Below are positions 18,001 to 46,850 of a DNA stretch of 64,000 nucleotides, one piece after another. Source of the stretch: Watersipora subatra (Eukaryota > Bryozoa > Gymnolaemata > Cheilostomatida > Watersiporidae). The position numbers and the translations under genes were made by a program. The DNA lies in assembly GCF_963576615.1 (NCBI RefSeq), contig NC_088711.1, positions 37,444,621 to 37,508,620 on the forward strand. Direction: 5' to 3'. A model generated the notes under the pieces. It worked only from the letters and a program-made list of their open reading frames with translations, had not been told where the DNA came from and made no database searches. Position 1 is the first letter of the stretch, and each line of letters opens with the position of its first letter.

Positions 18001-21000
18001 TCCTGGCTTCACAAACACCTGATCTCCAATCTTGTATGGGTTTAAACTAACATCATGAGAAACACTGCCTTCGACATTTGGTGTTCGCATTTTGTAGCAA
18101 AACAATCTTTCACATGCCACCACACCCTCGTTATTAGGAGTGTTGTTGTACCAAAACACCATATCACTGACTGTACACCCAGACCTAGCTAGCATTAGTT
18201 TAATAGTACGATGGTTATTGATTTGGTTGATTGGTTGATTTAGATATTGGTTATAGCACGATGCCATTTTGATGGTTCTGTATGCGCAACTGAATATGTG
18301 ATTTAGTTCAACTAGTGATTTAGTCCATTTGAGTGTGAACAAACTCAAAACTCTAAAGCACAGGCCATTGTCAAATAGAAGTTCTGTTGGAGCACCTGCT
18401 CCCTAAATATCTGCTATAGTTGCTCTATTACTGGCGCTGATGTTTCATTGGGCTGCTTCCTCCAAATGACATGTCTACTTGGGTCGCAGTCTATTACTGT
18501 TGCGTGTGGAACATTGTCGTAATGGGTTATATCTGTTGCTAATCGTAACCAGTCGCCTCATAAGCCTACTTACCCAGTCTCTCAGTAAGCTAGAACCGGA
18601 TTTACACACTTACACACAAAAAACAGTTGTTTCTACATCTTTTCTGTAGATGCCAGCACTCCACTTACTTTTTGCTAAATGTAGAGTTCGACCGACTCCT
18701 AGATGATAAGTGTCGTAAAGTTTGCGTTTGTCGTCTTTCCGTCTTTCTGAAACTGCTACGTTGACACTGCATATCCACGCTGCTAACCACTTTCAAAGAA
18801 CTCTTGTTATTTGTCAGCTTTTTTATCTTACTAGTGAGGTGTTAAGGGTTAAGTGATACTCTTCAGCTAAGTCAGCTGAGTTATTTATTGCATATTATCC
18901 ACATTGATTTTTTAGAACTGGTTGTCCTTCTGTTAATTTCCAGCTAACTGTTCATTTACTGCCATCGAACGCAGCTATGAAGTCCGTATCTTCAATGAGT
19001 AAATTGTTTGAGTCTGGCATGAACCAGCCGTCACGTCAATCAGTTTATATATTCAATCTACTCCTAGAATAAATCTGCAGTCACAAATTAACTCTGGTGC
19101 AGCTAGACAGTTGTTTCACGTTCTTGCCATCTATCATATGCAGCTTTCGGTGGAACTTTACTGCTGTTTTGTGCAGTACTTCCATTAAGCATTCTAACAG
19201 TTTTGCCTGGACCTGTGGTTCTTAACAGCAAGTTATCAACAACATCACCTGAAACAACAGACCATTCGCAGCCACTATCAGTATCAATAAAAGTTCTCAT
19301 GGGCATGTTGCTAATATTTACAGTTGCAATTGGAAGTGCCGATTTGCTGAGTATTGGTTGGGCGAACCTCCGACACAAACGCTCTACCGCTTTCATCCAA
19401 AGCTCTCACCACTCGCACTGATCACGGGTCACTATTTCATCCAAACCCATTTCTTCTACACCAGCCATCTTTTTCAACTGATTGGTCACACTGTTTGGTA
19501 ACCCTGCTATAACAGCAATTTTTGAGGAGCGGTTCAGGAGTTGTCTGACCATTGACTCAACCAGCCGGTGTAAATCTACTGAATACACATCTACAGTTTC
19601 TTCATTTTGTAATATTCTCTCACGCAGTTTTGAGTAGGCCTATACGCTATACCAGTTAATACTAAATGCAGTCAAGGAATAAAGAAAAAACAGAAAAGTA
19701 ACAAAAAACTAGATACAGTATGTTTGTTTATCTTTGGTGCTGGTCGTGGACAAGAAAAGACTACAAGAAATTGGAGGATAGGGAGTAGAAGATGAGGGTG
19801 CAGTATTGTGGGCTTGGTTTTGTTTTGCTCAGAATAATTGTTTTTAAAAATGTAAGTAAAAAATCTATTTACATTGGCACAAGCTGAGAAACTGTACTCA
19901 TACAGAAAAACCAGAACTTGAATTGCTAGAAACAAAAGCTTTCCTACTCTCTATGCGGTATATGATAACTCCAAATTATACAGCATTAAAAAACATCCCC
20001 CTTGTTACTTGCTGACATCTGCTAGCAAAAAAATCTGAGAGAGACATTCCCATGGAAAGCAAACCTGTCAAGGCACAAAACTAACAAACGGGCCAAAGTA
20101 CGAAAGGCCTTTTTGCCTTTTGTATCTAGAACTATTTTTCACAATTCTAAACAAAATTTCTGCCAAAGAGGTTTCATAACTTGAAAATTTTGTATATAGA
20201 GTATTTCAAAAGTAGAAGTTCCACCGTCCATATTTAGCTTGCGGATATAGCGATGCCCGATAACGCCTGATAAAAACTGAAAATATTGAGAAGTAGCAAG
20301 AGAACATTGAGAACACGAGGACAAGCATTGTGGTCAACATCAGCTAATGTGGTACCTATTGTTGTGGGAACACTAGAAACTTGACAAGACTGGAGACAAG
20401 ATGAATGTACTGGACATAACAAACATAAACTCAGTTTTAATTCCTAACTTTAAAAGTTTAAAGTTAAGGGTGTTACGACAAAGTGCTGTGACCAGAGCGG
20501 GCAAGACCTCACGGTCACTGACATAGCCAGACCGAGCCTTCCTATCATAGGAGAAGACTGGGCTGCTAGTGAGCCAGCTCGGCCGACCGAGAAAAAACAA
20601 AGGAAAACGGGCCGATCATAAAGTCTCGATATATGAGGCAGGCCATCACGATCGTTACAGCAGTCATACTGCAAACACGGCCTCTGCATGCATGCTCATT
20701 TGTTATACAGTGACATACATGTATACTTATGTACATTGCTCAAATACATATCACGGTGGCCAACACTCGGTGTGTTTATTGCTTGACTGTCTTGTGGAGA
20801 GTAAAGAAACAGGCAGTTTCCTTTACAAATGTTCTAACCTGACACCAGTTCAGGCTGGTTTACAACCTGAGGAAACTAACAAGGATAATGATATGAGTAA
20901 AGTACTTTAGCACAAACTACAACAATAAAAAAACTAACAATCATAACTAACCTTCTTGGGAGGCTGAGAATAGAAGACCATGTGACCAGCAAAGTCTGAA

Positions 21001-26000: not shown

Positions 26001-29000
26001 TCGAACGAATTTGTTTGGTCCGTTCACACGCAATGACAAATTGCTTTAGATAACTCGACCTTAACTTGGTTAACTCGAACAGTTTTTTTGCCCAACGGCT
26101 AACGGAGACGGTTGTTATTGCTTTATAATATCACTTTATTCCAAGCCATAGAGATAAACAACAATGTTTAGTAGTTCTTAGGCGTCATTATTACCACCAT
26201 CGGCAAAATATTTTCGTTAACGACTTTTCTAAAGGTTTGCAAAAAATCAAATTTTACCAAACATCTACTTGGGGATAGCCCTCCGCAAGCAAGGTGTAAC
26301 GAGGTAACCTTCAGATAAACTTTAAGAAAAATCGGCAAAACTGGTTTTGTTAAAACGCTCAAAAGAAAAATATATCTTTTTGTTCTGAGAGTTTCAATCG
26401 CGAACAAGTTTTGCCTATTTTAATCTGAATGTCTTGGCAGTCACAATCACCTAAAACAAACAAACGAACCTCAAGTAATAAAAGGAAAATATTTATACTT
26501 TCTGATAAAAATTGTTAAAACATTACATGAGAGGTCCCTTGACTTGCAACAAGCAATCAATGCTTTTGATTTATACATAGTTTGTATGTACTGATAAATA
26601 CAATAATACATGCACTTGTGACAGCGTTCTCATAACTTGAACGTTCTGATAACTCGAACACTTTCTCTTGGTCCTGTGAAGGTCGAGTTAGCCGAGTTTC
26701 ACTGTAGTTTGATAGCCAACTAATTTGATTATTTAGATAGCTTGTGGTCAGATCAATAATGCTAGCTTAGCTAATATAAAAGGTTTTGTTGGAAGGAATA
26801 GTGTAGCTATTTCTGGGTCTACGCAGTGTGTCATGTTTTTGTTTGTTTGTGAGTCTGTATACTATGAGTCTATATACTATGAGTCTGTATACTATGAGTC
26901 TATATACTATGAGTCTGTATACTATGAGTCTGTATATGATGAGTCTGTATACTATGCGTCTGTATACCATGAGTCTATATACTGTGAGTCTGTATACTAT
27001 GAGTCTGTATATGATGAGTCTATATACTATGAGTCTGTATACTATGAGTCTGTATACTATGAGTCTGTATACTATGAGTCTGTATACTATGAGTCTGTAT
27101 ATAATGAGTCTGTATATAATGAGTCTGTATATGATGAGTCTGTATATGATGAGTCTATATACTATGAGTCTGTATACTATGAGTCTGTATATGATGAGTC
27201 TGTATACGATGAGTCTGTATACGATGAGTCTGTATACGATGAGTCTGTATACGATGAGTCTGTATACGATGAGTCTGTATACGATGAGTCTGTATACTAT
27301 GAGTCTGTATATGATGAGTCTGTATATGATGAGTCTGTATATGATGAGTCTGTATATGATGAGTCTATATATGATGAGTCTGTATACTATGAGTCTGTAT
27401 ATGATGAGTCTGTATATGATGAGTCTGTATACTATGAGTCTGTATACTATGAGTCTGTATATGATGAGTCTGTATATGATGGGTCTGTATATGATGAGTC
27501 TATATACTATGAGTCTGTATACTATGAGTCTGTATATGATGAGTCTGTATATGATGAGTCTGTATATGAAGAGTCTGTATATGAAGAGTCTGTATATGAA
27601 GAGTCTGTATTAGATGAGTCTGTATTAGATGAGTCTGTATATGATGGGTCTGTATATGATGAGTCTGTATATGATGAGTCTGTATACTATGAGTCTGTAC
27701 ATGATGAGTCTGTATATGATGAGTCTGTATATGATGAGTCTGTATATGATGAGTCTGTATATGATGAGTCTGTATATGATGAGTCTGTATATGATGAGTC
27801 TGTATATGATGAGTCTGTATACTATGAGTCTGTATACTATGAGTCTGTATATGATGAGTCTGTATACTATGAGCCTGTATATGATGAGTCTGTATATGAT
27901 GGGTCTGTATATGATGAGTCTGTATACTATGAGTCTGTACACTATGAGTCTGCGCACGTAGAATTTGTATAAAAGGTACCTGTTACTAAACTATACTGCT
28001 AAAATTTGACTAGTCAAGACTCATGCAGTTCTATAAAAACTAACCATGTCCACTTCCTAATATTTCTCCCAAGAATTCTTAAATAGATTCGCCTTCTTAT
28101 TTCATTAATTACGGAAAAACTGATGTCCCAGAAGTTTTAGATATGCTTCTGATACTGTTAATTCCATAGCTTTCAAGCAACTAACATCTCAACTTGACCA
28201 TTTTTAATTTTGTGAGAAACACCGCCATCCAATCTAGTTTTGTGTACAGACATGCCAAAACCGCTGCTCTACTTAATACTAACATTGAAAGGGATAGAGA
28301 ACAGCCGACTCATTTTTAGAAACACCAAAAGCTAGCAAAGGTCTCTGCTGCTTGTTATGCTCAAGTCTGACTTTTAGCCTTTTGACACACTCATTTGAGA
28401 TGATCACAGGCTGTAGCTGTCCTCGGGAGCCAATCGACAGAGATACTAGCCCAATCTGTAATGAAAATGCACAACCTAAATTTTGCTTTCAAAAAATCAC
28501 AAAAAATATAGTCTTTCTTTAAAAATGTAACAAACTTGTCCAAAGATTCTTTAACAAAAGAAAAAAGTATAGAAAGAAGAGGAACACAAAAATATGGGAA
28601 ATATTAATGAAAAATCACATTTTAAGTTAAGTCGAGAAAACTTGATGAATCTGGCAATTATCTCTTCTTGATTGTATACTAGTTACTTGATAAATTTGGT
28701 TATGTCAGTACATTCTCTGCATGTTGATACCATTCATATGATTCGATCGAAGCGATTCACTATTCTTTTGACTCATTTTTATGTTGTTCATAACAAAACC
28801 TAATATTAAATAATTAACATAATTCTAATAATTATTCAACTTTTGACTGGTTAACTCATTGCAAGCAAGTTGTAGACACTAAGCAAACAAATCTATTTGA
28901 TGTTGAAAGGACAGTCCAAACTACACAATCAACCCAAACCCAGATAGCAATTTACAAAGTTTTAGAGCAACCAAAATGGTACAAAGTATTTTAGTGCTTT

Positions 29001-35000: not shown

Positions 35001-38000
35001 CAAGTGACCAACAGGCTCGTCATGATTATCAGACAATGATATGTACTCCTTCAAGCTAAGGCTAAAAAATTAAACGAATTTGTACAGTAAGTTATAAGAT
35101 ATCACTGCTAAAAATGACAGCATTACGGTGACGATAAAACAGACGCGTAAGAACAATAAACATGGTTTTATTGAATGCGTGAAGTATATTTGTGAAAATA
35201 TTTCGGCGAATAAGGTTGCATGAAAGTGTAAACAGAAACCATCTCTCACAACTACATCACATTTGAGCCGTTTTGGAAAGGGAATCCAAACTACGGCGGT
35301 CTCATGTGGCTGCGATTTTCTGTTCGTTTTTGAGCTTTCAAGAGCTTGTAATCACCTTTCCACATATTTTGCACCTACAACACAACAGAGTAAGACATGG
35401 TGAATCTTTTCATATCAAATAACGGTAATGTGAATTTTGTTGCAAGTCAACCTTTAAAATGTTTGCAGTATCATCGTTTTAATCGAGCACACGCTCATCA
35501 TTATTTTATGATTCTAAATAATCAGTAAAATAATAGTTAGTCTCACATAATGCATCATCTGTATCACAATTATCTATCACATACCAACAAATGAGTTGTA
35601 TAAATGTTTTTTATTTCATTCCAATAAAATTTTTATAATAACGAAAAAAGTTGATAAAAATATTTGAAAACAATAAAAATGGAAAATTTCTGGTTTTCTT
35701 CTATATGCAAGATGTATTTTGATAGGTTTGGACTCGCTATTGCTTAGAAACAGCATTTGCCAACAGAGTCATGTGGATGCTGCTGTACCGGTTGTCAGGG
35801 TTCAAAAAGTTAATATAAAATTAAATTTTATAACCTGCCTAGCAATAGAATAAGGAAAGGGTAAAGCGGCAGAGCAAAATTAGTAAAACTTGCAAACTGT
35901 TTTATCGTTTATGCAGGGCAATATAACATTTGCTCCTTCAATTCATACAGACATCATGCATGTTTGTAGTAATTTAGTCAGTAGGTAATTAAAAACCTTT
36001 GTACAAAATCAATACTCGATTGAGAAAATAAATAGGCAAAGAAAATGATGCTAACCTCGTGCTATCAAACTTGCTGCCACACGATTATCTAGTTTTACGG
36101 AAGGGCCAAGCATGCAATCTTGGCCGCAGTACGGATTCAGGTGAAGAAAACTCCTGCAATTGTTAACATTCAATTTAGCCATAAGAGTTGAGTACAAGAT
36201 TTGTAATTCATATCATAATTAATTGTCGGTATACTTAGACAATGTATCTTATACAACTGCATAATCTACATAGGTATTTATATAAATCTCAATGCATGCC
36301 TTTTGTTGGTCTTTGGTTTTCTGTCATCCCTGTGTCCAGCTATATCGATTAAAGTCTAGCAATGAAAAATCCCCACCATACTGGAATTGAGCCTCGGTTA
36401 CAATTGCAAGTATGCAACTACGCGCACCTAACCACAAAGCTAGGCCATTATCTTATTTAGCTCACCTACGGTATCCTTATCACGATTAAAGCTAAATATG
36501 TATGTTTTATTATAAATTATTATTACCTTTCGCATTTGTTTTTCGTTTGAAATTTTTTTAAAAGCTATTTTTAAATTCATTATTCATTTATCTTTATTTG
36601 TAATTTTTAACTGTGTCATTGCAATTTGAAATATTCCGTTACAGTACGACAGTTTCGATCTTCAATTTCTGGTTATTGAAAGGGTAATCGCCAGAAATTG
36701 TAAAACTAAAAAACGTTCGTATGGACATTCTCGCGTAAGAATTGCCTCTACATTCTCTCTTGGCTCCATCAGACAAAGTAAATTCGTGCGCTTCATTGAT
36801 GTTTTTAATTTTGATATCTCATTTTTACATTTATGCTAGTATCAGCTATCAAGAGGTACTAGTAAAGCCGAATTAAAAAGTTTGATGAATAGCTTCTGCA
36901 ACAACAGTAACCTTTTTTATAGACACACTTCTATGTACTCTTTGTCATTATTAATTCAACATATTCATGATTTCTATTTTACTCTTTTCAAGTTCATTTT
37001 AATTGTATCATTTCACTGTTCATTGTAACCATTGTAACAAATCATACTTTATCTAGCTATTACTTGCTAATTCTTTCACATTTTAACACCTTTACAGTTG
37101 TTTTAGTTTTCCTCCTAATTTATGTGAACTGCGCAAAACACTTTATTCATGATATGAAGTTTAAAATTTAAGATGGTAAACGTTATATATGTTGAATAAA
37201 AATAAATTTTCTGTGCATAGACTTCTTATTACCTCGACAATGATAAATGTAAGTGTCTGTCTGTCTTTTGTATGTTTAGTTATAGTGACAAAGTTTTAGG
37301 AACAAAAACCGTTTCTTACTAGAATTGAACTCGGAAACCCCAGTTTTAAAGGTAAGTGCGCTAGCCACTATTCCACACTACTTGCCATACTATGGAATAA
37401 TTGTCCACATACTTATTACAATTGCCAATCTTCAATGATGCATACATGCATACATCTTCTAACACACTTGAACTAATTTACTAGAAAAAAACTTTTACTA
37501 AAAGAAAAATACGTGTCCAGATTTTTCCAAAATGCTATGAACCTTAAACCTATATACATTATATATAAATCTCGGTGTCTGTCGTCTGTCCAGCTATAAC
37601 GATAAAGTTTTAATAACGAAAAATCAGCTTTGAAGATAATTGGATCTCGGAACCTACAGTTTTGGATGTGTCCGGCTTATCCATTACACTACATATTCAA
37701 CTGACAAAAGTGGTCAATAATTGTCAAGATATACATGTACATTACATCGTGTGGAATACGCATAATAACATTGCAACACACGTAATGATTACCAGCTGGT
37801 CTCACTAGGCAAATGCCCGGCGGTGTGTGTGTTGTAAAAACAGCTTATAGACAGTTGCAAGTACTGTAGTGTAAAGGTAATGTAGCAGGTAAAGTAATGT
37901 AAGTAAAGTAATGTTTATAAGCTGTTTTTCATTACCGGTGCAACCAAAGAATTTAGGTAGTAAATGCATATATAGCATAAACTTGATTAGACTTATAGCA

Positions 38001-41000
38001 CACACAGAAATAAGCAAATACCTTCATTTAAAAGTTAGAATGGTGAGTATTATTATGTATGTTGATTAAACTAAATTTTCTGTGCAAAAACTTTTTTATT
38101 ATCTGTGCTACGCCAGGCATTCAGTAGTAGATTATTAAGAATTAGTTTGTCACTTCTTCAAATTATTATTCCAATTACCATATATAGTTTTTGAGAGATT
38201 AGCCTTCTTTAGAGATTAACATAAAAACATAATGCAGACAACCTGTAAATTAATCTGCATTGTTGATTTGGCAGAGAGAGCAATTTAAAGTGTGATGCCC
38301 TTCCAGTTACAACAAGACAGCAAAAAGAGTAATTTTAATGATGAATGCCCATCCTACCACCACTATTGGCCTTTCTAAGAATTGAACACCAACCTTTCTG
38401 TTCACAGACCAGACGTTTTAGACCACTAGAACATGGATGCATTAAATATTTTTAAACAGTACATACTTTAGTATTTAGCATAGCTGAATAAAAGGACAAG
38501 ATGTCTAAAAATTATGTTAGTCTCCCATAACTTTAGATATCACAAAGAGGTGGGCATGTTTGTTTACTTGAGAGGTGACGTAAAGAGAATCTCAGGAACG
38601 CTTTCTATTGTCACCTCCAGATACAAAGAGTCATCGGGTACAGGTAGTGGTAGCACCCAGACTGGCTCGCACAAAACTGCTTTACAAGATTTGTTTGATT
38701 TTGTCAGCAAGTATTTGTCAGTCAGCGCTCCTTCAAATGTATCCTGAATGACTCCTGAAAAATAGTTAAAAGAATCTTCTCTGTGAGTTGAGCTACAGCA
38801 ATGTTCTTCTTTTGCTGCTCGATAAAAAAAGGAAATGTTTTTAATAGTGGCTGCCATAGTGGCAGTAGGTATATAAAGAATGTAACAGTAGTGTACTTCT
38901 GGTGTAGTAGTAATGGTGTTATACATAGCAATACATATATACCAATAGAGAAAGCTCAGAAAGGACAATTGTGACGGTAATTGGGTGTTTATACTAGTTG
39001 GGGTAGTACTACAGTGGTTATAGCAAAAATGGTGAGACTACTAGAGATAGTATGTTATAGTACTAAAGCTAGTAGCACAGGTTGAAAAGAAAAAAGAATA
39101 TAATCATCATGTATACACATAACTGCAATTAGAATTGTTCCTATCAGAGTTATTTTCACTCATTTGAGCAGCGCATCTTATGCAATCTTTTGATTTTTTT
39201 TCTGTTCAGAATTAACGGATGAAGTTTCTTTTATCTCCCGATAAAGACATTGACTGGCTGGTGATTTGTGTAGTTCACCATTTCTTAAAGTGCTCAACAA
39301 ACACCTATGGAAAACATCAACAAGTAACTCCCACGGAGTATCTTTTGTAGTAGGTACTTGCTAAAGAGACCTGTATTATGTTAGGCGAGGGTTCCATTTG
39401 TAGTAGGTACTTGCTAAAAAGACCTGTGTTATGATAGGCTAGGACTTCCTTTGTAGTAGGTATTTGATAGAGAAACCTGTGTTATGACGGGCTAAGGTTC
39501 CCTTGCAGCAGTTACTTACTAAAGAAACCTGTGTCATGATATGCTAAGGTTCCCTTGGAGTAAGTACTTGCTGAAGAGACCTGTTATATGATAGACTAGG
39601 GTTTGCTTGTAGTAAGTACTTGGAAGATAAATCTTCAGATAAATCAACAACCAAAGTATAAGCATGCTGCACACAACAACCAATGAACTCATGAAAAACT
39701 GAAATGAGCATACAATAAAAATAACTTGACTGAAAAAGGCAAACTGTTGCAAAGTCTCTAACAAGAGCAAGGAAACATTGAAAATGAGGGGTACGCAGGC
39801 TTAAAAGATTACCAGTGTGATTCCCATCTCGTGTCAAGTGTGAGCTAGATATATGGACATGCAGTACGAAGCCATCTTGAGCAACCATCAAACTTGCAGC
39901 AGGAGAATACCTGTTCTTGCAGTGTATGCTCACCTGTAGCATGTTCCTGAAACCCATCAGTGCACCCTAAAAAATATATGTGTGTTCTCACCTGTGGCGC
40001 GGTCTTGTAAGCCAACTGTCTACCCTAATAATAAAAGGATACCTATTATACTAGTGTATTCTCACCTGTAGCATGTTCCTGCAAGTTATCAGTCTGCCCT
40101 AGTAACAGAAGGATACCTATTTTGATAGTGTATACTCACCTGTAGCGTGTTACTGTAAGCCAACTGTCTACCCTAGTAATAGAAGGATACCTATTATACT
40201 AGTGTATTCTCACCTGTAGCATGGTCTTGTAAGCCAACTGTCTACCTTAGTAACAGGAGTGTACCTATTATACTAATGTATTCACACCTGTAGCATGTTA
40301 TTGTCTACCCTAATAGACAGGAACATTAGACTACATAGACTAATAGACTACATAGACTACATCAGCTACATTAGACTAGATAGATAGTCTACCCGAGTAA
40401 CAGAAAGATATCTATTATAACAGTGTATGCATCCATAGAACCCAGATTTTGTACCTACTTTAACAGACATATACTCATATGCTTCAGAACTGAGAAATTG
40501 TGACTGCTTGGTTATCTCAACTTTGGTGTTTTTGATGTCTATTCTTGGAACAACTTGAATAGTTCCATCAGTATTGATCTGCAATATGCCCATAGATTAT
40601 CAGAAAACTTGAGCAGAATAAAGACATGTTGATCTTCATACCCTGTATTGACTACGAGTGAACAACTCTTGGCAGCTAGCTTGAAGTACTATAAATGCTT
40701 AGCAAGCTTCCATTGATACATTCTGGTCAATGATAAGTGTTAATACAAACATTTACTGGCATCTTTTCTAGGTGGGTGATAAAATAGCAAAATTATGCAT
40801 AACTATGTTTGCTTTGGGTTTAAGTAAACCAGCTCAACGTGCTTACCTACACAGCTAAAGAGAACACAACTTACCTGTAGTAAATTATATTTCCATTCGC
40901 AATAATCATCGCCATGTGAAATATCAAGCGCAGTGAGAGACTTTCCAACAATTTCATCTATAGTACATACATACCAGAAAATAATAGCTTTGGCAAGAAA

Positions 41001-41006
41001 AAGCAT
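1..41006 (-). CDS. CATSPERG: CATSPERG-like gene (CatSper channel auxiliary subunit gamma), 22 exons, 3' end off the window
   Basis: Whole-gene span; exons are listed separately. CatSper gamma is a single-pass membrane protein of the sperm flagellum whose large ectodomain joins the beta, delta and epsilon subunits in the canopy over the pH-gated CatSper Ca2+ channel. Seen here: 22 exons whose intron phases join without conflict (0,0,1,2,1,0,0,1,1,1,2,0,0,0,0,0,1,0,0,1,2), giving 961 codons from an ATG with a signal peptide. The family signature is in exons 20 and 21: [12 protein letters not shown], then a short Cys-x-x-x-Asp-x-x-x-x-Cys stretch, then [14 protein letters not shown] followed by IRRFTEEEI. 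These match the C-terminal ectodomain of vertebrate CATSPERG as I remember it (human protein about 1,150 residues). The last ectodomain part, the transmembrane helix and the stop should lie left of position 1. Identity is firm for the C-terminal part and inferred by linkage for the rest. Exons 17 and 22 are the least certain. Confidence 0.85.
68..1421. other. CATSPERG intron 21
   Basis: Contains the CA/TG-rich array at 425-1140. I see nothing coding in the rest. Long open frames here are products of the dinucleotide repeat. Confidence 0.5.
425..1140. repeat. CA/TG-rich low-complexity block passing into ATACATGT repeats
   Basis: The left part (to about 905) is alternating purine-pyrimidine with CACA, CGCA and CATG tracts. 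The right part is a near-perfect series of the palindromic unit TACATGTATA. The block is open in many frames on both strands as His/Thr- or Cys/Val-rich nonsense, so no coding function is inferred. Confidence 0.9.
1422..1581 (-). CDS. CATSPERG: CATSPERG exon 21, conserved VVGGG segment
   Basis: A 160-nt exon, phase 1 in, phase 2 out, acceptor ATTTTGTAG, donor AC/GTATGT. It continues exon 20 with [20 protein letters not shown] then YTLKVVGGG and FTEEEI. This block is the best conserved stretch of CATSPERG in animals and aligns without gaps to the vertebrate pattern I remember. Confidence 0.9.
2185..2560. repeat. Direct duplication of about 130 bp
   Basis: The words GAGAATAAG and GACTCTAGAAGCATTA occur near 2385 and again near 2515, with a minus-strand open frame of 119 codons through both. 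The protein resembles nothing I know. I treat it as duplicated intron DNA. Confidence 0.4.
2561..3396. other. Intron sequence without recognised feature
   Basis: AT-rich CATSPERG intron 20 sequence. I see no exon with usable splice sites, no transposon ends and no RNA gene. Confidence 0.4.
3397..3542. repeat. Minisatellite, unit about 25 bp
   Basis: About six degenerate copies of a unit containing CAGTAAACACCCCTATA. Intronic. Confidence 0.7.
3870..3950 (+). repeat. tRNA-like SINE head
   Basis: TTAGTGCAGTGGTAGAGTGTC resembles a pol III box A. A box-B-like GATTTGGAGTCTC follows at about the expected distance. The remainder is too diverged for a tRNA gene. Confidence 0.4.
4540..5165. repeat. 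Minisatellite, unit about 46 bp
   Basis: About 13 copies built on TGTTATTTTGAACAGAAAG and ATAACTCTATGCTTA. The array ends about 50 bp from the donor of CATSPERG exon 20. Confidence 0.9.
5217..5370 (-). CDS. CATSPERG: CATSPERG exon 20, conserved GCPP segment
   Basis: A 154-nt exon, phase 0 in, phase 1 out, acceptor GTTTATAG, donor A/GTAAGA. It encodes [20 protein letters not shown] and a downstream pair of cysteines ([14 protein letters not shown]). The Ile/Leu-Gly-Cys-Pro-Pro motif followed by Cys-x3-Asp-x4-Cys-Phe is a hallmark of the CatSper gamma C-terminal ectodomain, so this exon anchors the gene identity. Confidence 0.9.
5811..6108. repeat. Minisatellite, 25-bp unit, 12 copies
   Basis: Nearly identical units of CTAGCCAGGCATGCATACAT plus ATGTA. 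The unit holds two overlapping palindromes (GCATGC, ACATATGT). Very low divergence implies recent expansion. Confidence 0.95.
6312..6455 (-). CDS. CATSPERG: CATSPERG exon 19
   Basis: A 144-nt exon, 48 codons, phase 0 both ends, acceptor ATTTTTAG, donor GGA/GTAAGT. It encodes [20 protein letters not shown], immediately before the conserved GCPP exon. Confidence 0.8.
6845..7386. repeat. Minisatellite, 68-bp unit, about 8 copies
   Basis: Unit contains TATGACAAGGTGTAACGTCT and ACTAGTTAGATAAATACATG. The measured period is 68 bp and copies differ by one to three bases. Confidence 0.95.
7475..8360. mobile_element. TTAA-flanked MITE with long terminal inverted repeats, copy 1
   Basis: Begins AGGTTGACTTGCAACAAAAT and ends with its reverse complement; each end is flanked by TTAA, the target of piggyBac-type transposases. 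The inverted repeats extend about 150 bp. No transposase. Two relatives occur at 34580 and 61030. It lies only 41 bp downstream of exon 18. Confidence 0.8.
8402..8526 (-). CDS. CATSPERG: CATSPERG exon 18
   Basis: A 125-nt exon, phase 1 in, phase 0 out, donor TTT/GTAAGT. The acceptor AAATTGTAG has a second TAG six bases further in that keeps the frame. It encodes [20 protein letters not shown] and FYRDVVKFF. Confidence 0.75.
9226..10085. repeat. Minisatellite, 14-bp unit, about 60 copies
   Basis: Continuous TAACTACCAACTGT units with point variants (TGACTACC, TAATTACC, CTAACTACC). It fills most of the intron between exons 17 and 18. Confidence 0.97.
10086..10593. other. Intron sequence without recognised feature
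   Basis: No repeat or exon recognised. GC content is near the local average. Confidence 0.4.
10594..10744 (-). CDS. CATSPERG: CATSPERG exon 17 (candidate)
   Basis: A 151-nt segment open in one frame between GATGACAG and donor G/GTGAAA. Its phases (0 in, 1 out) are exactly those needed to join exon 16 to exon 18, which otherwise do not match. It encodes [20 protein letters not shown]. The acceptor lacks a good pyrimidine tract and the sequence is more acidic than its neighbours, so another small exon in this intron is possible. A 100-codon plus-strand frame overlaps it. Confidence 0.35.
11099..11329 (-). CDS. CATSPERG: CATSPERG exon 16
   Basis: A 231-nt exon, 77 codons, phase 0 both ends, acceptor GTATTCAACAG, donor TTG/GTAAAA. 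It opens [20 protein letters not shown] and contains several N-glycosylation sequons (NLT, NDS, NLS), fitting an extracellular domain. Confidence 0.8.
12152..12234. other. Two consecutive perfect hairpins
   Basis: An 11-bp stem (12152-12162 with 12166-12176, TCATCACAATA) is followed by a 17-bp stem (12187-12203 with 12218-12234, CATCTTTCACCTGCACT) with a 14-nt loop. Both are perfect. Intronic; function unknown. Confidence 0.75.
12235..12654. other. Intron sequence, no supported gene
   Basis: A 76-codon plus-strand frame (12370-12600) has no recognisable domain and no splice context. I treat the region as non-coding. Confidence 0.35.
12655..13252. mobile_element. Tigger/pogo-like non-autonomous element, truncated
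   Basis: The right end CGAGTTATCCATGTTTGACTG followed by TA matches the terminus of the intact copy at 61821-62580, and the interior is collinear with it. The left inverted repeat is missing. Confidence 0.7.
13772..14440. repeat. Minisatellite, 13-bp unit, about 50 copies
   Basis: Units of CAAGTACTCTAAT and CAAGTACTCCAAT alternate in higher-order blocks. The array stops about 160 bp downstream of exon 15. Confidence 0.97.
14603..14701 (-). CDS. CATSPERG: CATSPERG exon 15
   Basis: A 99-nt exon, 33 codons, phase 0 both ends, acceptor CATTCTTTAG, donor CAG/GTTTTA. It encodes [20 protein letters not shown]. Only the phase-0 frame is open. Confidence 0.75.
14848..15024 (-). CDS. CATSPERG: CATSPERG exon 14, probable GC donor
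   Basis: A 177-nt exon, 59 codons, acceptor TTATTCTTTTCAG. It encodes [20 protein letters not shown] and later [15 protein letters not shown]. The phase needed by exon 15 is met only if the donor is CTG/GCAAGT, a GC-AG intron. The nearby GT sites would both end in phase 1, which exon 15 cannot accept without a stop. Confidence 0.75.
15570..15660 (-). repeat. tRNA-derived SINE head
   Basis: On the minus strand GTGGTTGATTGGTGCAGTTG looks like a tRNA 5' half with box A. AGTTTGAATCCTGC is a good box B. There is no acceptor stem complement, so this is a SINE relic and not a tRNA gene. Confidence 0.5.
15776..16221. repeat. Minisatellite, 20-bp unit, about 22 copies
   Basis: Units of AATAAATAGCATGAGATCAT with GTTCAT and TATCAT variants. 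Confidence 0.97.
16222..16722. other. Intron sequence without recognised feature
   Basis: Nothing supported on either strand. Confidence 0.4.
16723..17104 (+). mobile_element. Helitron-like element with tRNA-like core
   Basis: Starts with TC inside an AT-rich flank and ends with a hairpin (CCCTGC/GCAGGG) followed by CATTCGGCTAA then T, the CTRR/T layout of Helitrons. The middle carries, in reverse orientation, a tRNA-like box A/B region (AATTGAGCTACGCGAGAG). Relatives at 32440, 32881, 44129, 55031. Confidence 0.5.
17947..18760 (-). pseudogene. Ty3-like retrotransposon integrase remnant
   Basis: Minus strand, decayed by frameshifts and stops. In order: a zinc-finger-like stretch near 18650-18740, a core segment with [13 protein letters not shown] near 18450-18520, and an open frame (17947-18348) with [10 protein letters not shown], typical of the end of the integrase core, followed by [11 protein letters not shown], the usual C-terminal motif. 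Domain order and orientation agree with the protease fragment at 19103-19396. Reverse transcriptase and RNase H were not found between them, so the copy is internally deleted. Confidence 0.65.
19103..19640 (-). pseudogene. Ty3-like gag C-terminus and aspartic protease remnant
   Basis: The upstream frame (19406-19588) resembles a gag C-terminal region ([17 protein letters not shown]). The next frame (19103-19396) has PMRTFIDT, the aspartic protease active-site neighbourhood, with Asp where Gly is usual after Asp-Thr. Frames are broken. No LTRs were recognised at either side. Confidence 0.55.
19641..20951. other. Intron sequence, no supported gene
   Basis: Several 60-110-codon open frames occur on both strands (for example 20569-20910) but none has a recognisable domain or consistent splice context. 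Possibly 5' parts of the Ty3-like element. Confidence 0.35.
20952..21044 (-). CDS. CATSPERG: CATSPERG exon 13
   Basis: A 93-nt exon, 31 codons, phase 0 both ends, acceptor ATGTTTCAG, donor AAG/GTTAGT. It encodes [20 protein letters not shown] and ends SQPPKK, a clear propeller-blade pattern. Upstream TTTAG at 21067 could extend it by 22 nt, but the phase would then fail. Confidence 0.8.
21437..21486 (+). ncRNA. Degenerate hammerhead ribozyme copy
   Basis: Repeats the 3' two-thirds of the ribozyme at 21696 (TGATGAGGCTTCAATAGCC, GAAACAG, CTGTCTGTAGC). The core C is T and the 5' strand of stem I is replaced, so it should not fold or cleave. Confidence 0.55.
21696..21741 (+). ncRNA. Type I hammerhead ribozyme, minimal stem III (Penelope/retrozyme type)
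   Basis: All conserved parts are present in order: stem I 5' strand GCTGCA (21696-21701), core CTGATGA (21702-21708), stem II GGCT/AGCC with loop TCAAT (21709-21721), GAAA (21722-21725), stem III ACAG/CTGT with a 2-nt loop (21725-21734), cleavage base C at 21735, and stem I 3' strand TGTAGC (21736-21741), which pairs over its full length with GCTGCA including one G-U. Hammerheads with such tiny stem III are known in Penelope-like elements and retrozymes, where they may act as dimers. It lies antisense to CATSPERG in intron 12. Confidence 0.85.
21799..22493 (-). mobile_element. Helitron-like repeat, minus orientation
   Basis: Starts with the family's hairpin end (GGCGTTGCCCGGGTAATAAA) and ends in ATACTTTGAGAAATATG. 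It shares blocks such as CATATCATGAGAAAAGTG with 32881-33826 and 23364-24150. The terminal CTAG is mutated. Confidence 0.45.
22571..22660 (+). ncRNA. Mutated hammerhead-like sequence next to an inverted half copy
   Basis: GAGCTGCACTGATGATGCTT and AAGCC keep stem I 5' strand, core and part of stem II, but GAAA is AAAA and the cleavage side is diverged. Just downstream the reverse strand shows another half (AATAGCCAAAACAGTGCTGT), so two relics lie head to head. Confidence 0.5.
23003..23132. repeat. 130-bp inverted repeat around a TA tract
   Basis: ATGATTTACTTCACCAGTAT and TTCAGCTGAAGTAAGTATAT are mirrored on the right after (TA)n. Arms are about 37 bp of unique sequence plus TA repeats, so the locus can form a long cruciform. 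Confidence 0.85.
23364..24150 (+). mobile_element. Helitron-like repeats (probably two fused copies)
   Basis: TTTCTCAATG at the left after a TA tract, and GGGCAACGCCGGG, AGCACAG, CTAG then T at the right. An internal terminus-like hairpin (CCCAGGCTACGCCTAG) near 23635 suggests two copies. Confidence 0.45.
24466..24514 (-). CDS. CATSPERG: CATSPERG exon 12 (49 nt)
   Basis: A short exon with textbook splice sites (TTTGCTCTAG and CAG/GTAAGT), phase 2 in, phase 0 out. It encodes [16 protein letters not shown] and joins directly to SISAPFG of exon 13. A CAG three bases into it offers a NAGNAG-like alternative acceptor. Confidence 0.65.
24784..24862 (-). CDS. CATSPERG: CATSPERG exon 11
   Basis: A 79-nt exon, phase 1 in, phase 2 out, acceptor ATAAGATAG, donor GG/GTGAGT. 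It encodes [20 protein letters not shown]. The polypyrimidine tract is weak, but the phase is exactly what exons 10 and 12 require. Confidence 0.6.
24956..25384. repeat. Minisatellite, 34-bp unit, 12-13 copies, abutting the exon 10 donor
   Basis: Units of ATTAACACTACTCTTATTGT plus TACAAGGCACATAT. The last unit runs into the GTGAGT of CATSPERG exon 10. Confidence 0.95.
25390..25479 (-). CDS. CATSPERG: CATSPERG exon 10
   Basis: A 90-nt exon, phase 1 both ends, donor G/GTGAGT, acceptor ACATGTAG. It encodes [20 protein letters not shown]. Both flanks are tandem repeats. The 34-bp array (24956-25384) starts at the donor. Copies of the acceptor plus about 12 nt recur twice upstream (25535, 25599). 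Confidence 0.75.
25475..25662. repeat. Three tandem copies (60-64 bp) duplicating the exon 10 acceptor
   Basis: ATTATCTACATG recurs at 25475, 25535 and 25599. On the minus strand each reads CATGTAG/ATAAT, so the real acceptor has two decoys just upstream. Confidence 0.8.
25760..25933 (-). CDS. CATSPERG: CATSPERG exon 9
   Basis: A 174-nt exon, phase 1 both ends, acceptor GTTTGTTACAG, donor G/GTAAAC. It encodes [12 protein letters not shown], two spaced cysteines and [20 protein letters not shown], a propeller-like strand pattern. A Tigger-like transposon (25951-26704) ends 17 nt before this exon, so most of the normal branch-point region is transposon sequence. An open frame running on into the transposon is an artefact of read-through. 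Confidence 0.8.
25951..26704. mobile_element. Tigger/pogo-like non-autonomous element
   Basis: Terminal inverted repeats CAGTGAAACTCGGATAACTC and its near-complement at the right, with TA after the right end. Interior matches 12655-13252 and 61821-62580. No transposase. Inserted 17 nt upstream of CATSPERG exon 9. Confidence 0.8.
26842..27960. repeat. Minisatellite, 15-bp unit, about 74 copies, open in several frames
   Basis: Units of GAGTCTGTATATGAT with ATACTAT, ATACGAT and ATATGAA variants. Because 15 is a multiple of three and the unit lacks stops in several frames, a 379-codon plus-strand frame (pentapeptide Tyr/Asp-Glu-Ser-Val-Tyr) and other long frames arise. No start context, splice sites or non-repeat protein flank it. 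Taken as non-coding intron DNA. Confidence 0.95.
27961..28283. other. Intron sequence without recognised feature
   Basis: Short stretch between the 15-bp array and exon 8; nothing supported. Confidence 0.4.
28284..28455 (-). CDS. CATSPERG: CATSPERG exon 8
   Basis: A 172-nt exon, phase 0 in, phase 1 out, acceptor TTCATTACAG, donor T/GTTAGT. It encodes [20 protein letters not shown] then [13 protein letters not shown]. Good length and only one open frame. Confidence 0.8.
29049..29283. repeat. Minisatellite, 41-bp unit, left of the mariner
   Basis: Nearly identical CATTGCTAAAGATTCCACAA units ending in GAGTAACTAACATGC. Degenerate copies resume after the mariner (30244-30500), so the element landed inside the array. 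Confidence 0.9.
29284..30241 (+). mobile_element. Mariner element with near-perfect ends, internally deleted
   Basis: 958 bp with 36-bp terminal inverted repeats starting CGAGGGTCAGTCAATAAGTA (one mismatch), flanked by TA. It carries a broken transposase (separate entry). Clean ends but dead coding capacity make it a probable non-autonomous copy. Confidence 0.95.
29445..30205 (+). pseudogene. Mariner transposase, N-terminal HTH plus C-terminal catalytic part
   Basis: Codons 1 to about 125 give the paired helix-turn-helix DNA-binding domain ([14 protein letters not shown] is the typical linker). The middle, including the first catalytic Asp, is deleted and the frame shifts near 29830. The later part shows HQDNAHPH and [11 protein letters not shown], whose two Asp residues are 34 apart (D34D), a TGA where mariners have Trp, and a one-base frameshift in FHFF. 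Cannot make active transposase. Confidence 0.9.
30244..30500. repeat. Degenerate 41-bp minisatellite, right of the mariner
   Basis: Diverged continuation of the array at 29049-29283 (TAACTAACATG, GCTAAA, CACAACTA words). Confidence 0.7.
30750..30863 (-). CDS. CATSPERG: CATSPERG exon 7
   Basis: A 114-nt exon, 38 codons, phase 0 both ends, acceptor CACTGCAG, donor GAT/GTATGT. It ends [15 protein letters not shown], a blade-like strand that continues into exon 8. Confidence 0.75.
30955..32399 (+). mobile_element. Helitron-like composite
   Basis: 5' end TCTCAAAGTTTG after a TA tract and 3' end TGCTGGGCATTCTGCTAG then T. Contains two tRNA-like antisense segments (near 31070 and 32095) and the CATATGATATGAAG-type internal blocks, so it is probably two nested copies. 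Confidence 0.45.
32440..32806 (+). mobile_element. Helitron-like element, complete
   Basis: Both ends lie in TA tracts: TCTCAAAGTTTGTGCGTATG at the left, and hairpin GGGCAATGCCGGG, AGCGCAG, CTAG then T at the right. The interior includes an antisense tRNA-like segment (CCCTACCACATTAGCCACAC). Confidence 0.55.
32881..33826 (-). mobile_element. Helitron-like element, long form with tRNA-like segment
   Basis: Begins CTAGCTGTACTACCCGGGGT and ends CAAACTTTGAAAAAT. The tRNA-like part at 33668-33738 has box A TGGCTCAGTGGTAGAGTG and box B GAGTTGAAATC on the plus strand. Confidence 0.5.
34141..34253 (-). CDS. CATSPERG: CATSPERG exon 6
   Basis: A 113-nt exon, phase 1 in, phase 0 out. The acceptor is CCCGTCTAG and the donor is a strong AAA/GTGAGTAAG. 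It encodes [20 protein letters not shown], a propeller-blade-like strand pattern. I looked for it because exons 5 and 7 could not be joined in phase; it fits exactly. Confidence 0.7.
34580..35453. mobile_element. TTAA-flanked MITE, copy 2
   Basis: Same ends as the copy at 7475 (AGGTTGACTTGCAACAAAAT and complement), TTAA at both sides, 874 bp, no insertion. Lies in CATSPERG intron 5. Confidence 0.85.
36056..36153 (-). CDS. CATSPERG: CATSPERG exon 5
   Basis: A 98-nt exon, phase 2 in, phase 1 out, acceptor AATTGCAG, donor G/GTTAGC. It encodes [16 protein letters not shown]. The two cysteines four apart suggest an extracellular disulfide. The other two frames are closed by stops. Confidence 0.7.
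36287..38130 (+). mobile_element. Helitron-like composite, diverged
   Basis: Several family ends and inner blocks (TTATATAAATCTC, GCTATATCGATTAAAG, TTTATTATCTGTGCTACGCC) with tRNA-like antisense parts near 36400, 37340 and 37640. At least three overlapping copies. Confidence 0.4.
38360..38440 (-). repeat. tRNA-derived SINE head
   Basis: On the minus strand TTCTAGTGGTCTAAAACGTC (box A) and GGTTGGTGTTCAATTCT (box B-like). Confidence 0.45.
38568..38754 (-). CDS. CATSPERG: CATSPERG exon 4
   Basis: A 187-nt exon, phase 1 in, phase 2 out, acceptor CTATTTTTCAG/GA, donor AA/GTAAAC. It encodes [16 protein letters not shown] and later [14 protein letters not shown], with beta-rich spacing typical of the ectodomain. 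A plus-strand reading frame over the same bases is only its antisense shadow. Confidence 0.75.
39335..39630. repeat. Minisatellite, about 53-bp unit, 6 copies
   Basis: GTAGTAGGTACTTGCTAAAG and CCTGTGTTATGATAGGCTA words recur about every 53 bp. Intron 3. Confidence 0.85.
39813..39966 (-). CDS. CATSPERG: CATSPERG exon 3, first 33 nt duplicated upstream in tandem
   Basis: A 154-nt exon, phase 0 in, phase 1 out, with acceptor TTTTTTAG and donor GTAATC. It encodes [11 protein letters not shown] and then a segment containing [15 protein letters not shown]. After the first 33 nt there is an internal GTGAGC that could act as an alternative donor. That 33-nt block recurs upstream as a tandem array (39992-40309), so this exon may have grown from, or seeded, the array. 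Confidence 0.65.
39992..40309 (-). repeat. CATSPERG: 74-bp tandem array of candidate 33-nt micro-exons
   Basis: Copies start at 39992, 40066, 40140, 40214 and 40288, exactly 74 bp apart. On the minus strand the first three read TAG, a 33-nt open block in phase 0, then GTGAGA or GTGAGT. Predicted peptides are [22 protein letters not shown] and [11 protein letters not shown]; the fourth ([11 protein letters not shown]) has a broken acceptor (TAA) and the fifth is shortened to 22 nt with a stop. The first 33 nt of exon 3 ([11 protein letters not shown]) are a further member. Inter-block spacing is 41 bp, short for an animal intron, so alternative use rather than serial inclusion would be expected. 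Confidence 0.8.
40459..40578 (-). CDS. CATSPERG: CATSPERG exon 2
   Basis: A 120-nt exon, 40 codons, phase 0 at both ends, with acceptor ATTGCAG and donor GTAGGT. It begins [15 protein letters not shown]-terminal ectodomain, no motif recognised. It lies just upstream of the 74-bp micro-exon array. Confidence 0.7.
40875..41006 (-). CDS. CATSPERG: CATSPERG exon 1 (start codon, signal peptide)
   Basis: The ATG at 41006-41004 has a purine at -3 and opens 44 codons ending at a strong donor (CAG/GTAAGT). The start [15 protein letters not shown] is hydrophobic and fits a cleaved signal peptide, as expected for a type I protein. A later [10 protein letters not shown] segment resembles the first Cys/Trp-containing strand of mature CatSper gamma. 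An alternative is that the coding exon begins at the acceptor ending at 40958 (phase 1) with an unseen upstream exon. The signal peptide makes the first reading better. Confidence 0.65.
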
Positions 41007-45134: not shown

Positions 45135-46850
45135 TGATTCTTTCAATACTTTTTTGAATCAGTGTTTACAGTTGATGATGGAACCCAATGTCATAGCTTC
45201 AATACTGAAAAGATCTCTGATAAAACATTAATTGACATTGATAGCTTAGGAGTCCTACAGTTGCTCAATAGCTTGGACACCACCAAGTCCTATGGACCTG
45301 ACAATGTGACAGGCATCATGCTAAAAACATTTGCTTTGGTGGTGTATAATAGCCTTTCTTCAATCTTTTGCATACTTTCTGGCAATAGCGAAACTACCTT
45401 CGATTTGGAAACTTGGAGAGTCCAACCTATACACAAAAAGGGAAACAAACAAATACCAAACAATTATAGACCTATTTTCCTCACTAGCATAGTGTGCAAG
45501 CTTTTAGAACACATAGTTTCCTCATATTTGCATAAGATTTTTAAAGAGGGTAACATTTTTGTAGACAGTCAACATGGTTTTCGACCTCATAGGTCTTGCG
45601 AGACTCAATTAGCTCATACTGTTGGACACCTTTCACACCTATATGATCAAAAACAAACAACTGATGTTATAATATTAGACTTTTCTAAAGCATTTGACAC
45701 CGTTAATCATCGAAAACTGATCTTTAAACTATCACATATTGGTATTAACAATGTCTTGCTTTCCTAGATATCTGACTTTCTTAGCGATCAACATCAATTT
45801 GTTGAAATCGAGGGTCAGAGGTCTAACACAAAACTAGTCAGTTCAGGTGTGCCACAGGGCTCAGTTTTGGGCCCTTTGCTTTTTCTAATATATATCAATG
45901 ATTTACCATCTTGTCTTCAATCACAGTGTCGTCTTTTTGCCGATGATGCAATACTGTATAACACGAGTGACAAATTAACGCTTTTAAAACAAGACCTTTT
46001 TGCATTAGAGGCATGGGCTTCTAAGTGGCAAATGAAATTTAATGTTGACAAGTGCACATTCTTACAAATTGGTAAAAACATTAATAGCCACCCTGGATAT
46101 ACTTTCTGTGGACAAAATCTAAATAAAGTGTCTTCTTTTCTTTATCTCGGATTACAACTACAAGCAGATCTAAAATGGAATGAACACATAGACAAAATAA
46201 CAACTAAGTCTACACAGAAGTTGGCAATGATCAGAAGGGTGCTAAAATCTGCAGATACCCCTACAAAAAAAATTGCCTATTTTTCTTTAGTAAGGCCAAC
46301 ACTAAAATATGCCTCACAAATCTGGGATCCCTATCAAAATAAACATGTCTAACAGCTTGAAAAGTTGCAAAATAAAGCACTACGATTTATTTTTAACATT
46401 AAGGGCCAGATAAGTTTTACAAAATTACGAGAAGATACAAGTGTTGAGTCCTTACAGGAGAGAAGAAGAGAGGGTAGGCACAAACTGTTTGTAAGATATG
46501 CTGCCGAGGGCATAGAACCACCATTCAAACGCGAAAACATAGGATACAATACCCGCCAAAAATCAAACACCTATACTCCATATATAAGAACTAATGTATT
46601 CTATCAGTCCTTTTGGCCTCGTACACTAAGAGAGTTAAGATCCTGATAAGATGAATCCTTAGGACAAAATAAAATATGTAAAAATATATATATGTATATA
46701 TAAATAAATAGAAAAAACACAATATAATTTTTAAAAAAAATATTATTTTGAAACCACTTATTAGTGTAAACACACCGTGTTCCCACGCCCTTACGCACCT
46801 GCTGTGCGGTCTAAGTGGGAAAATATAATAATAATAATAATAATAAAGGT
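45135..46850 (+). mobile_element. 5'-truncated CR1/Jockey-type LINE with microsatellite tail
   Basis: Contains the 3' part of ORF2 (next entry), an AT-rich 3' UTR and a terminal (ATA/AAT)n run at 46829-46850, as in CR1/L2/Jockey-group elements. The endonuclease domain is absent, typical 5' truncation. Confidence 0.85.
45162..46646 (+). pseudogene. Non-LTR reverse transcriptase, two in-frame stops
   Basis: One continuous frame broken only by TAG at 45765 and TAA at 46350, plus a frameshift just before 45162. Motifs in order: NNYRPIFLTSIVCKLLEHIV, SQHGFRPHRSCETQL, ILDFSKAFDTVNH (first catalytic Asp), SSGVPQGSVLGPLLFLIYIN, CRLFADDAILY (the FADD catalytic pair), then the thumb and C-terminal region with SLVRPTLKYASQIWDP. 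All catalytic residues remain, so the copy is young. Confidence 0.9.

Follow-up and report, generated by a model that had tools for sequence, protein, structure and literature searches.

A small minisatellite probably copied from the start of exon 3 in a probable CATSPERG gene of the bryozoan Watersipora subatra

Short splice-like blocks recur on the minus strand of a 64,000-nt stretch of Watersipora subatra DNA (contig NC_088711.1, positions 37,444,621 to 37,508,620), which we refer to as the window and within which all positions are given. On the evidence of the sequence comparisons described below, we consider it likely that these blocks form a small, old minisatellite whose units were copied from the opening 74 nt of exon 3 in a probable CATSPERG gene. 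The original prediction had taken them for 33-nt micro-exons with their own splice sites; read against the neighbouring exon, they are probably remnants and not a source of variant proteins.

The array has a 74-nt period, with 4.3 copies, 82% matches and a score of 430 at 39980-40299 in TRF (reporting threshold, 50), and thus fits the definition of a minisatellite as a tandem array of 10-100-nt units. On the minus strand, CAG/GTG anchors (the slash marks the splice-like junction) were found at 40290, 40216, 40142, 40068, 39994 and 39936. The predicted spacing of exactly 74 bp holds for the first five anchors, which are separated by four intervals of 74 nt, while the sixth follows after 58 nt (39994 to 39936). 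The most upstream unit, u1 (40247..40320), is degenerate, with a weaker GTGTGA replacing GTGAG, and u2 (40173..40246) reads CTAA/GGT, with its AG one base late. Among the five upstream blocks, only u3 (40099..40172; CAG/GTGAGT, 173 nt to exon 3), u4 (40025..40098; CAG/GTGAGA, 99 nt to exon 3) and u5 (39967..40024) carry an AG in register, and u5 is cut to 58 nt, leaving 25 nt between its GTGAG and the exon 3 acceptor. Reading the blocks bore out the four 11-residue peptides that had been listed for u3, u4, u5 and the start of exon 3.

Just inside intron 2, we additionally identified a relic half copy, copy 0, at about 40430-40386 on the minus strand, consisting of unit positions 38-74 followed by positions 1-8. 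When tested as 40426-40381 against the unit consensus, its score was reached by 0 of 2000 dinucleotide shuffles. The comparison of copy 0 with exon 3 alone was not significant (1164 of 2000 shuffles in the strict form, 97 of 2000 in the loose form); an exact GCATACACTG is common to both. A short-period, GTAGACTA-like repeat (40327..40384, minus strand; TRF periods 9 and 17) may perhaps have grown from the GGTAGAC of the unit. The exon 2 donor is followed by 28 nt (40431..40458, minus strand) before recognisable copies begin, and neither local nor anchored alignment tests matched these 28 nt significantly to the unit. A search that skips simple repeats and very common words located the array DNA at one place in the 784-Mb assembly, of which the contig of the window makes up 67 Mb, and Rfam yielded no match at gathering scores within the window. 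As regards the predicted copy-number variation between individuals, the single assembly thus offers one matching place, and the copies in it are diverged (82% matches).

The array is placed by a model of five exons, all on the minus strand. Exon 1 (40875..41006) would begin with a Met start and a signal-like N terminus and end in phase 0 at CAG/GTAAGT, a donor agreeing with the consensus at 9 of 9 positions, and exon 2 (40459..40578), an open frame, would end in SVK at AAA/GTAGGT (7/9), also in phase 0. Exon 3 (39813..39966) has a TTTTTTAG acceptor, starts at 39966 with GGTGCACTGATGG at the predicted junction with exon 2, and ends in phase 1 at ACTG/GTAATC (6/9). It is followed by the putative exon 4 (38568..38850; donor 6/9), which holds the best CATSPERG_NTD stretch, and exon 5 (36056..36153; donor 6/9), entered in phase 2 and left in phase 1. 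The introns of the model measure 296, 492, 962 and 2414 nt and, judged by eye, the five open frames join in matching phases. Two variants were rejected. Splitting exon 3 into a 33-nt micro-exon and a 41-nt intron gives a phase-0 frame after AAG/TTT that meets a stop and misfits exon 4, and extending exon 2 through its donor as far as the relic copy gave the lowest Pfam score (12.5 bits) and was left without support by the DNA tests. Intron 3 of the model contains a second minisatellite (39345-39622; 52-nt unit, 5.3 copies), for which comparison with each of exons 1-5 gave no significant resemblance.

Comparison of the array with exon 3 revealed that the first 74 nt of the exon (39893..39966, minus strand), which are coding in the model, are homologous to the whole unit and are its probable parent. 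Exon-3 nt 1-33 are identical to u2, u3 and u4 at 25, 25 and 26 of 33 positions, and nt 34-74 match the supposed intron part of the same units at 29, 30 and 27 of 41. When both strands of the window were scanned without gaps, the best non-self match of nt 48-74 was u3, in the predicted register (18/27), followed among the copies by u1 and u2 (17/27 each) and u4 and copy 0 (15/27 each); a match of 17/27 was also reached at nine unrelated places in the window. Over the next 27 nt after nt 74, identity falls to 4/27 for u2-u4 and 5/27 for u1. Since the homology extends over 74 nt and then ends sharply, the repeat unit corresponds to exon-3 nt 1-74.

This correspondence changes how the splice-like ends are to be read. 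Exon 3 continues through its own GTGAG as coding sequence, so that the unit's "donor" is homologous to Val-Ser codons of the exon, and the unit's "polypyrimidine tract and AG" is homologous to the exon-3 coding stretch TATTCTCCTGCTGCAAG. Given that the "donor" matches Val-Ser codons, exon 3 is best regarded as the source from which the units were copied. Micro-exons with their own splice sites are partly borne out: splice-like ends are present, but the homology to exon 3 spans both the 33-nt block and the 41-nt "intron". In the same way, the combination of an AG, an open 11-codon frame in phase 0 and GTGAG is found in u3, u4 and u5, whereas the exon-3 block is not a separate block of this kind. 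Because exon-3 nt 48-74 also match the unit, we did not adopt as the main model a duplication across the intron-exon boundary of an older intron, such as that known from potato.

We take the host gene to be CATSPERG, an assignment that is probable rather than proven, the Pfam match lying below the cut-off. The joined exons scored 17.6 bits against Pfam CATSPERG_NTD (E 0.0037; gathering cut-off, 27) and 17.3 bits with exon 5 added. Models lacking the exon-4 stretch matched no CATSPERG family in Pfam and, against our main reading, the total dropped to 15.9 bits when two candidate downstream pieces were added. A genome-wide search with CATSPERG_NTD gave 0 matches in this genome and likewise 0 in all 14 control genomes. 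We also used a human and mouse profile, which combined human CATSPERG residues with the mouse chain. Across all frames of the window, its top match was at 28488-28282 on the minus strand, at only E 0.26. On the joined exons, positions 67-89, 112-147 and 296-330 aligned colinearly, each weakly (0.8, -0.4 and 1.8 bits). The profile total was reached by 2 of 2000 generated whole-protein shuffles (1154 of which received a reported score), a control that flatters the match because two of the joined pieces had been picked partly for their resemblance. Searches of the PDB with the joined exons returned no CATSPER chain, giving one unrelated match (E 0.4) in one case, two HLA chains (E 0.18 and 0.38) in another and no match in the remaining ones. 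The idea of an extracellular sperm protein thus survives in a qualified form, as probably an ectodomain subunit of a sperm ion channel with a family match below the cut-off. The evolution of CatSper is the subject of two papers (PMC2572835, PMC6660944).

The direction of copying turns on which start of exon 3 is old coding sequence. We scored nine joined-protein variants against CATSPERG_NTD, and the native exon-3 block was the best of the nine, at 17.6 bits. Substituting u2, u3, u4 or u5 for this block gave 15.9, 15.5, 13.2 and 12.8 bits, respectively, and the remaining variants scored 15.9 (u5 plus the exon-3 block), 13.1 (no block), 13.0 (a late-acceptor model, in which exon 3 begins at AAG/TTTGATGG) and 12.5 bits (exon 2 reading on). 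Two shuffles of the exon-3 block reached 12.8 and 13.3 bits. As the best Pfam stretch is exon 4 in every model, the exon-3 block changes only the total score. With the human and mouse profile, the native block gave 4.8 bits, compared to 1.6-1.8 for the single-block, no-block, read-on and late-acceptor models, and 0 of 200 shuffled 11-mers reached this value (best, 2.4 bits); the aligned piece spans the joint of exons 2 and 3, against LVRKGHLMGLKPVVL. Inserting a block before the exon-3 block yielded 5.0 (u5), 3.9 (u3) and 3.5 bits (u4). The summed pairwise score was reached by shuffled blocks in 6 of 5000 trials.

Three pairwise results run against our main reading. In global alignments summed over human and mouse, the late-acceptor model scored 14, compared to 13 for the native model; when only human was used, omitting the block gave 62.0 and the native model 60.5; and the 24-residue exon-3 peptide was placed at two incompatible positions, that in mouse reached by 18 of 5000 shuffles and that in human by 37 of 5000. 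On balance, the scores nevertheless suggest that the native beginning of exon 3 has long been coding and that the array derives from exon 3.

Under this preferred reading, the exonic segment would by chance have held a strong cryptic donor, CAG/GTGAGC (Gln-Val-Ser), together with a pyrimidine-rich stretch ending in AG (TATTCTCCTGCTGCAAG). Repeated tandem duplication of the 74-nt segment would then have produced a row of copies, and because the cryptic donor and the pyrimidine/AG stretch lie within exon 3, the duplicated units would resemble an acceptor, an exon and a donor. Splicing most likely joins exon 2 directly to exon 3, the last copy and the one that stayed intact, with everything in between removed as intron 2. 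Since intron 2 is almost wholly repeat and the parent segment entirely exonic, duplication may have created this intron or greatly lengthened it; the 28 nt after the exon 2 donor have no significant match to the unit, and so intron 2 is not demonstrably all repeat and its creation is the more tentative part of this proposal.

The opposite direction of copying, the main rival, appears unlikely. It supposes that the array was born within intron 2 as an ordinary intronic minisatellite and that a new TTTTTTAG acceptor later allowed exon 3 to extend upstream over the last unit. In its favour, a possible acceptor, TATTCTCCTGCTGCAAG/TTTG, lies almost exactly where the array stops, so that the end of the array and the expected acceptor of a unit roughly coincide, which would be mere coincidence if the units are copies of the exon. 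The late-acceptor model also aligns to human and mouse about equally well (14 versus 13, pairwise). This direction would, however, need a phase-2 donor in exon 2, for which inspection by eye gave only weak candidates (GA/GTATAT and GG/GTTCTA), and both Pfam (17.6 versus 13.0 bits) and the human and mouse profile (4.8 versus 1.8 bits) favour the first 33 nt of exon 3 as conserved coding sequence.

It is likewise unlikely, in our view, that some transcripts carry a single block, either u3 or u4, between exons 2 and 3 and so gain 11 residues in the ectodomain. The signals themselves are compatible with such cassettes: the donors of u2-u5 and the internal exon-3 site agree with the consensus at 8-9 of 9 positions, compared to 9 for exon 1, 7 for exon 2 and 6 for exons 3-5 of the gene model, and the acceptors of u3-u5 have 11 pyrimidines in 15, compared to 6-10 for the model's own acceptors. 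The blocks are open and in frame, u3 and u4 lie 173 and 99 nt from exon 3, and insertion of u5 keeps the human and mouse profile score (5.0 versus 4.8 bits). Similar motifs, CAG/GTGAGC (8/9) and TATTCTCCTGCTGCAAG (11 pyrimidines in 15), occur inside exon 3 itself, and the window holds 42 sites on both strands with a donor match of at least 8/9. The spacing further restricts inclusion. Neighbouring blocks are 41 nt apart and u5 is 25 nt from exon 3, gaps that are unlikely to be of spliceable size next to the gene-model introns of 296-2414 nt, so that u5 and adjacent pairs are probably too close to splice, leaving u3 or u4, each by itself, as the only blocks that might be included. Adding u5 before the exon-3 block also lowers the Pfam total (15.9 versus 17.6 bits), as adding u3 or u4 lowers the profile score (3.9 and 3.5 versus 4.8 bits).

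Open frames, moreover, are expected under decay. In a simulation that started from the exon-3 block and applied the observed number of random, independent changes to each block, u3, u4 and u5 all stayed open in 63% of trials. We found no sign of constraint on the blocks: among u2-u4, identity is lower in the 33-nt part (79/99) than in the 41-nt part (109/123), and most differences between blocks change amino acids. The pooled pN/pS between blocks was 3.5 on very few changes, with 1.4 and 0.45 in the two other frames, so the dN/dS-type comparison proposed for the blocks gave no indication of purifying selection. The motif pattern also recurs in other arrays of the contig. Counting arrays with a period of 30-200 nt and at least 3 copies, 2 of 20 in 20 ten-kb stretches of the same contig (200 kb) share the pattern of three or more donors that have an open block in frame, and inside the window the open-block-plus-donor pattern is seen in 2 of 10, the 74-nt array included. 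With units that look like copies of exon 3, openness expected under decay, gaps of 25 and 41 nt and no sign of constraint, the proposed cassette or mutually exclusive variants found no support.

A combined history, in which one duplication process made both a new intron and alternative 11-residue inserts in a fertilisation-related ectodomain, with u3 or u4 sometimes included, strikes us as improbable. Least probable of all is that the gene model is wrong and the array an ordinary non-coding minisatellite with splice-like motifs by chance: the family match is sub-threshold, the donors of exons 3, 4 and 5 are weak (6/9), similar arrays occur elsewhere on the contig and no CATSPER chain came up when the joined exons were searched against the PDB, but the phases match across five exons and three mammal-like segments stand in the right order with a score that 2 of 2000 shuffles reached, albeit the segments are weak and two pieces were picked partly for resemblance.

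Several other repeats were observed in the window and on the contig. A 46-nt array (4539-5176; 13.9 copies) carries open in-frame blocks ending in GTRAG at five places on its minus strand, and a very regular 15-nt array (26850-27952; 73.5 copies), in which several minus-strand frames are open, is perhaps a likelier site of copy-number variation than the 74-nt array. In one sampled stretch of the same contig (L012), two arrays with a 110-nt period, at 2404-3900 and 4640-5173, contain many minus-strand GTRAG sites, some with open in-frame blocks. The window also contains plus-strand frames in broken pieces (45138-46646) that we take to resemble a LINE-type reverse transcriptase, and minus-strand frames (17950-19639) that presumably resemble parts of an LTR retroelement, namely gag, protease and integrase.

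Finally, we compared the locus with known systems. Schistosome micro-exon genes have short exons in multiples of three with phase-0 ends, which are transcribed and alternatively spliced. The blocks described here, in contrast, are related to one another and look like decayed copies of the single exon next to them, and their inclusion in transcripts is putative; a regular AG...GTGAG repeat need not amount to a bank of micro-exons. In the literature, no title on the present locus was found among the matches listed.

Tandem duplication of exonic sequence, the Rogers model of intron gain, is already a known way of making or lengthening introns and is likely to have acted here. In fission yeast, introns of SPOG_01682/SOCG_00815 are made of 24-nt exonic repeats (PMC3629103), and in the potato RdRp gene an intron was born by a duplication that activated a cryptic donor (PMC4974935). 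Both cases resemble the bryozoan array: the repeated unit shares homology with the exon beside it, the duplicated exonic segment contains cryptic splice sites, and the intron consists of tandem, non-identical copies. They differ in that the unit here is 74 nt long, with about five and a half upstream copies that are older and more diverged, and in that intron gain is here a proposal made from the sequence of one assembly. The potato duplication, furthermore, crosses the intron-exon boundary, whereas the present unit matches the exon only. Internal tandem repeats at exon-intron boundaries have also been linked to novel introns in human paralogs (PMC2812944); these repeats are likewise boundary minisatellites able to activate cryptic splice sites, with about 4 copies on average, but they come with transcripts and variable copy number, whereas the present array is known from the DNA of one assembly. 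In Cryptococcus, intron-bearing repeats have expanded (PMC2395259), and the tandem units carrying splice sites, multiplied by repeat expansion, are similar to those described here. There, whole introns were duplicated in a repetitive gene region and the gained introns are polymorphic, while the supposed introns between our blocks measure 41 or 25 nt and are unlikely to be spliced. Viewed against these systems, an exon-derived intronic array is not surprising enough to alter the general view but, if confirmed, the locus would provide a readable animal example of an intron created or enlarged when coding sequence was duplicated in tandem, its parent segment being preserved intact beside the copies.
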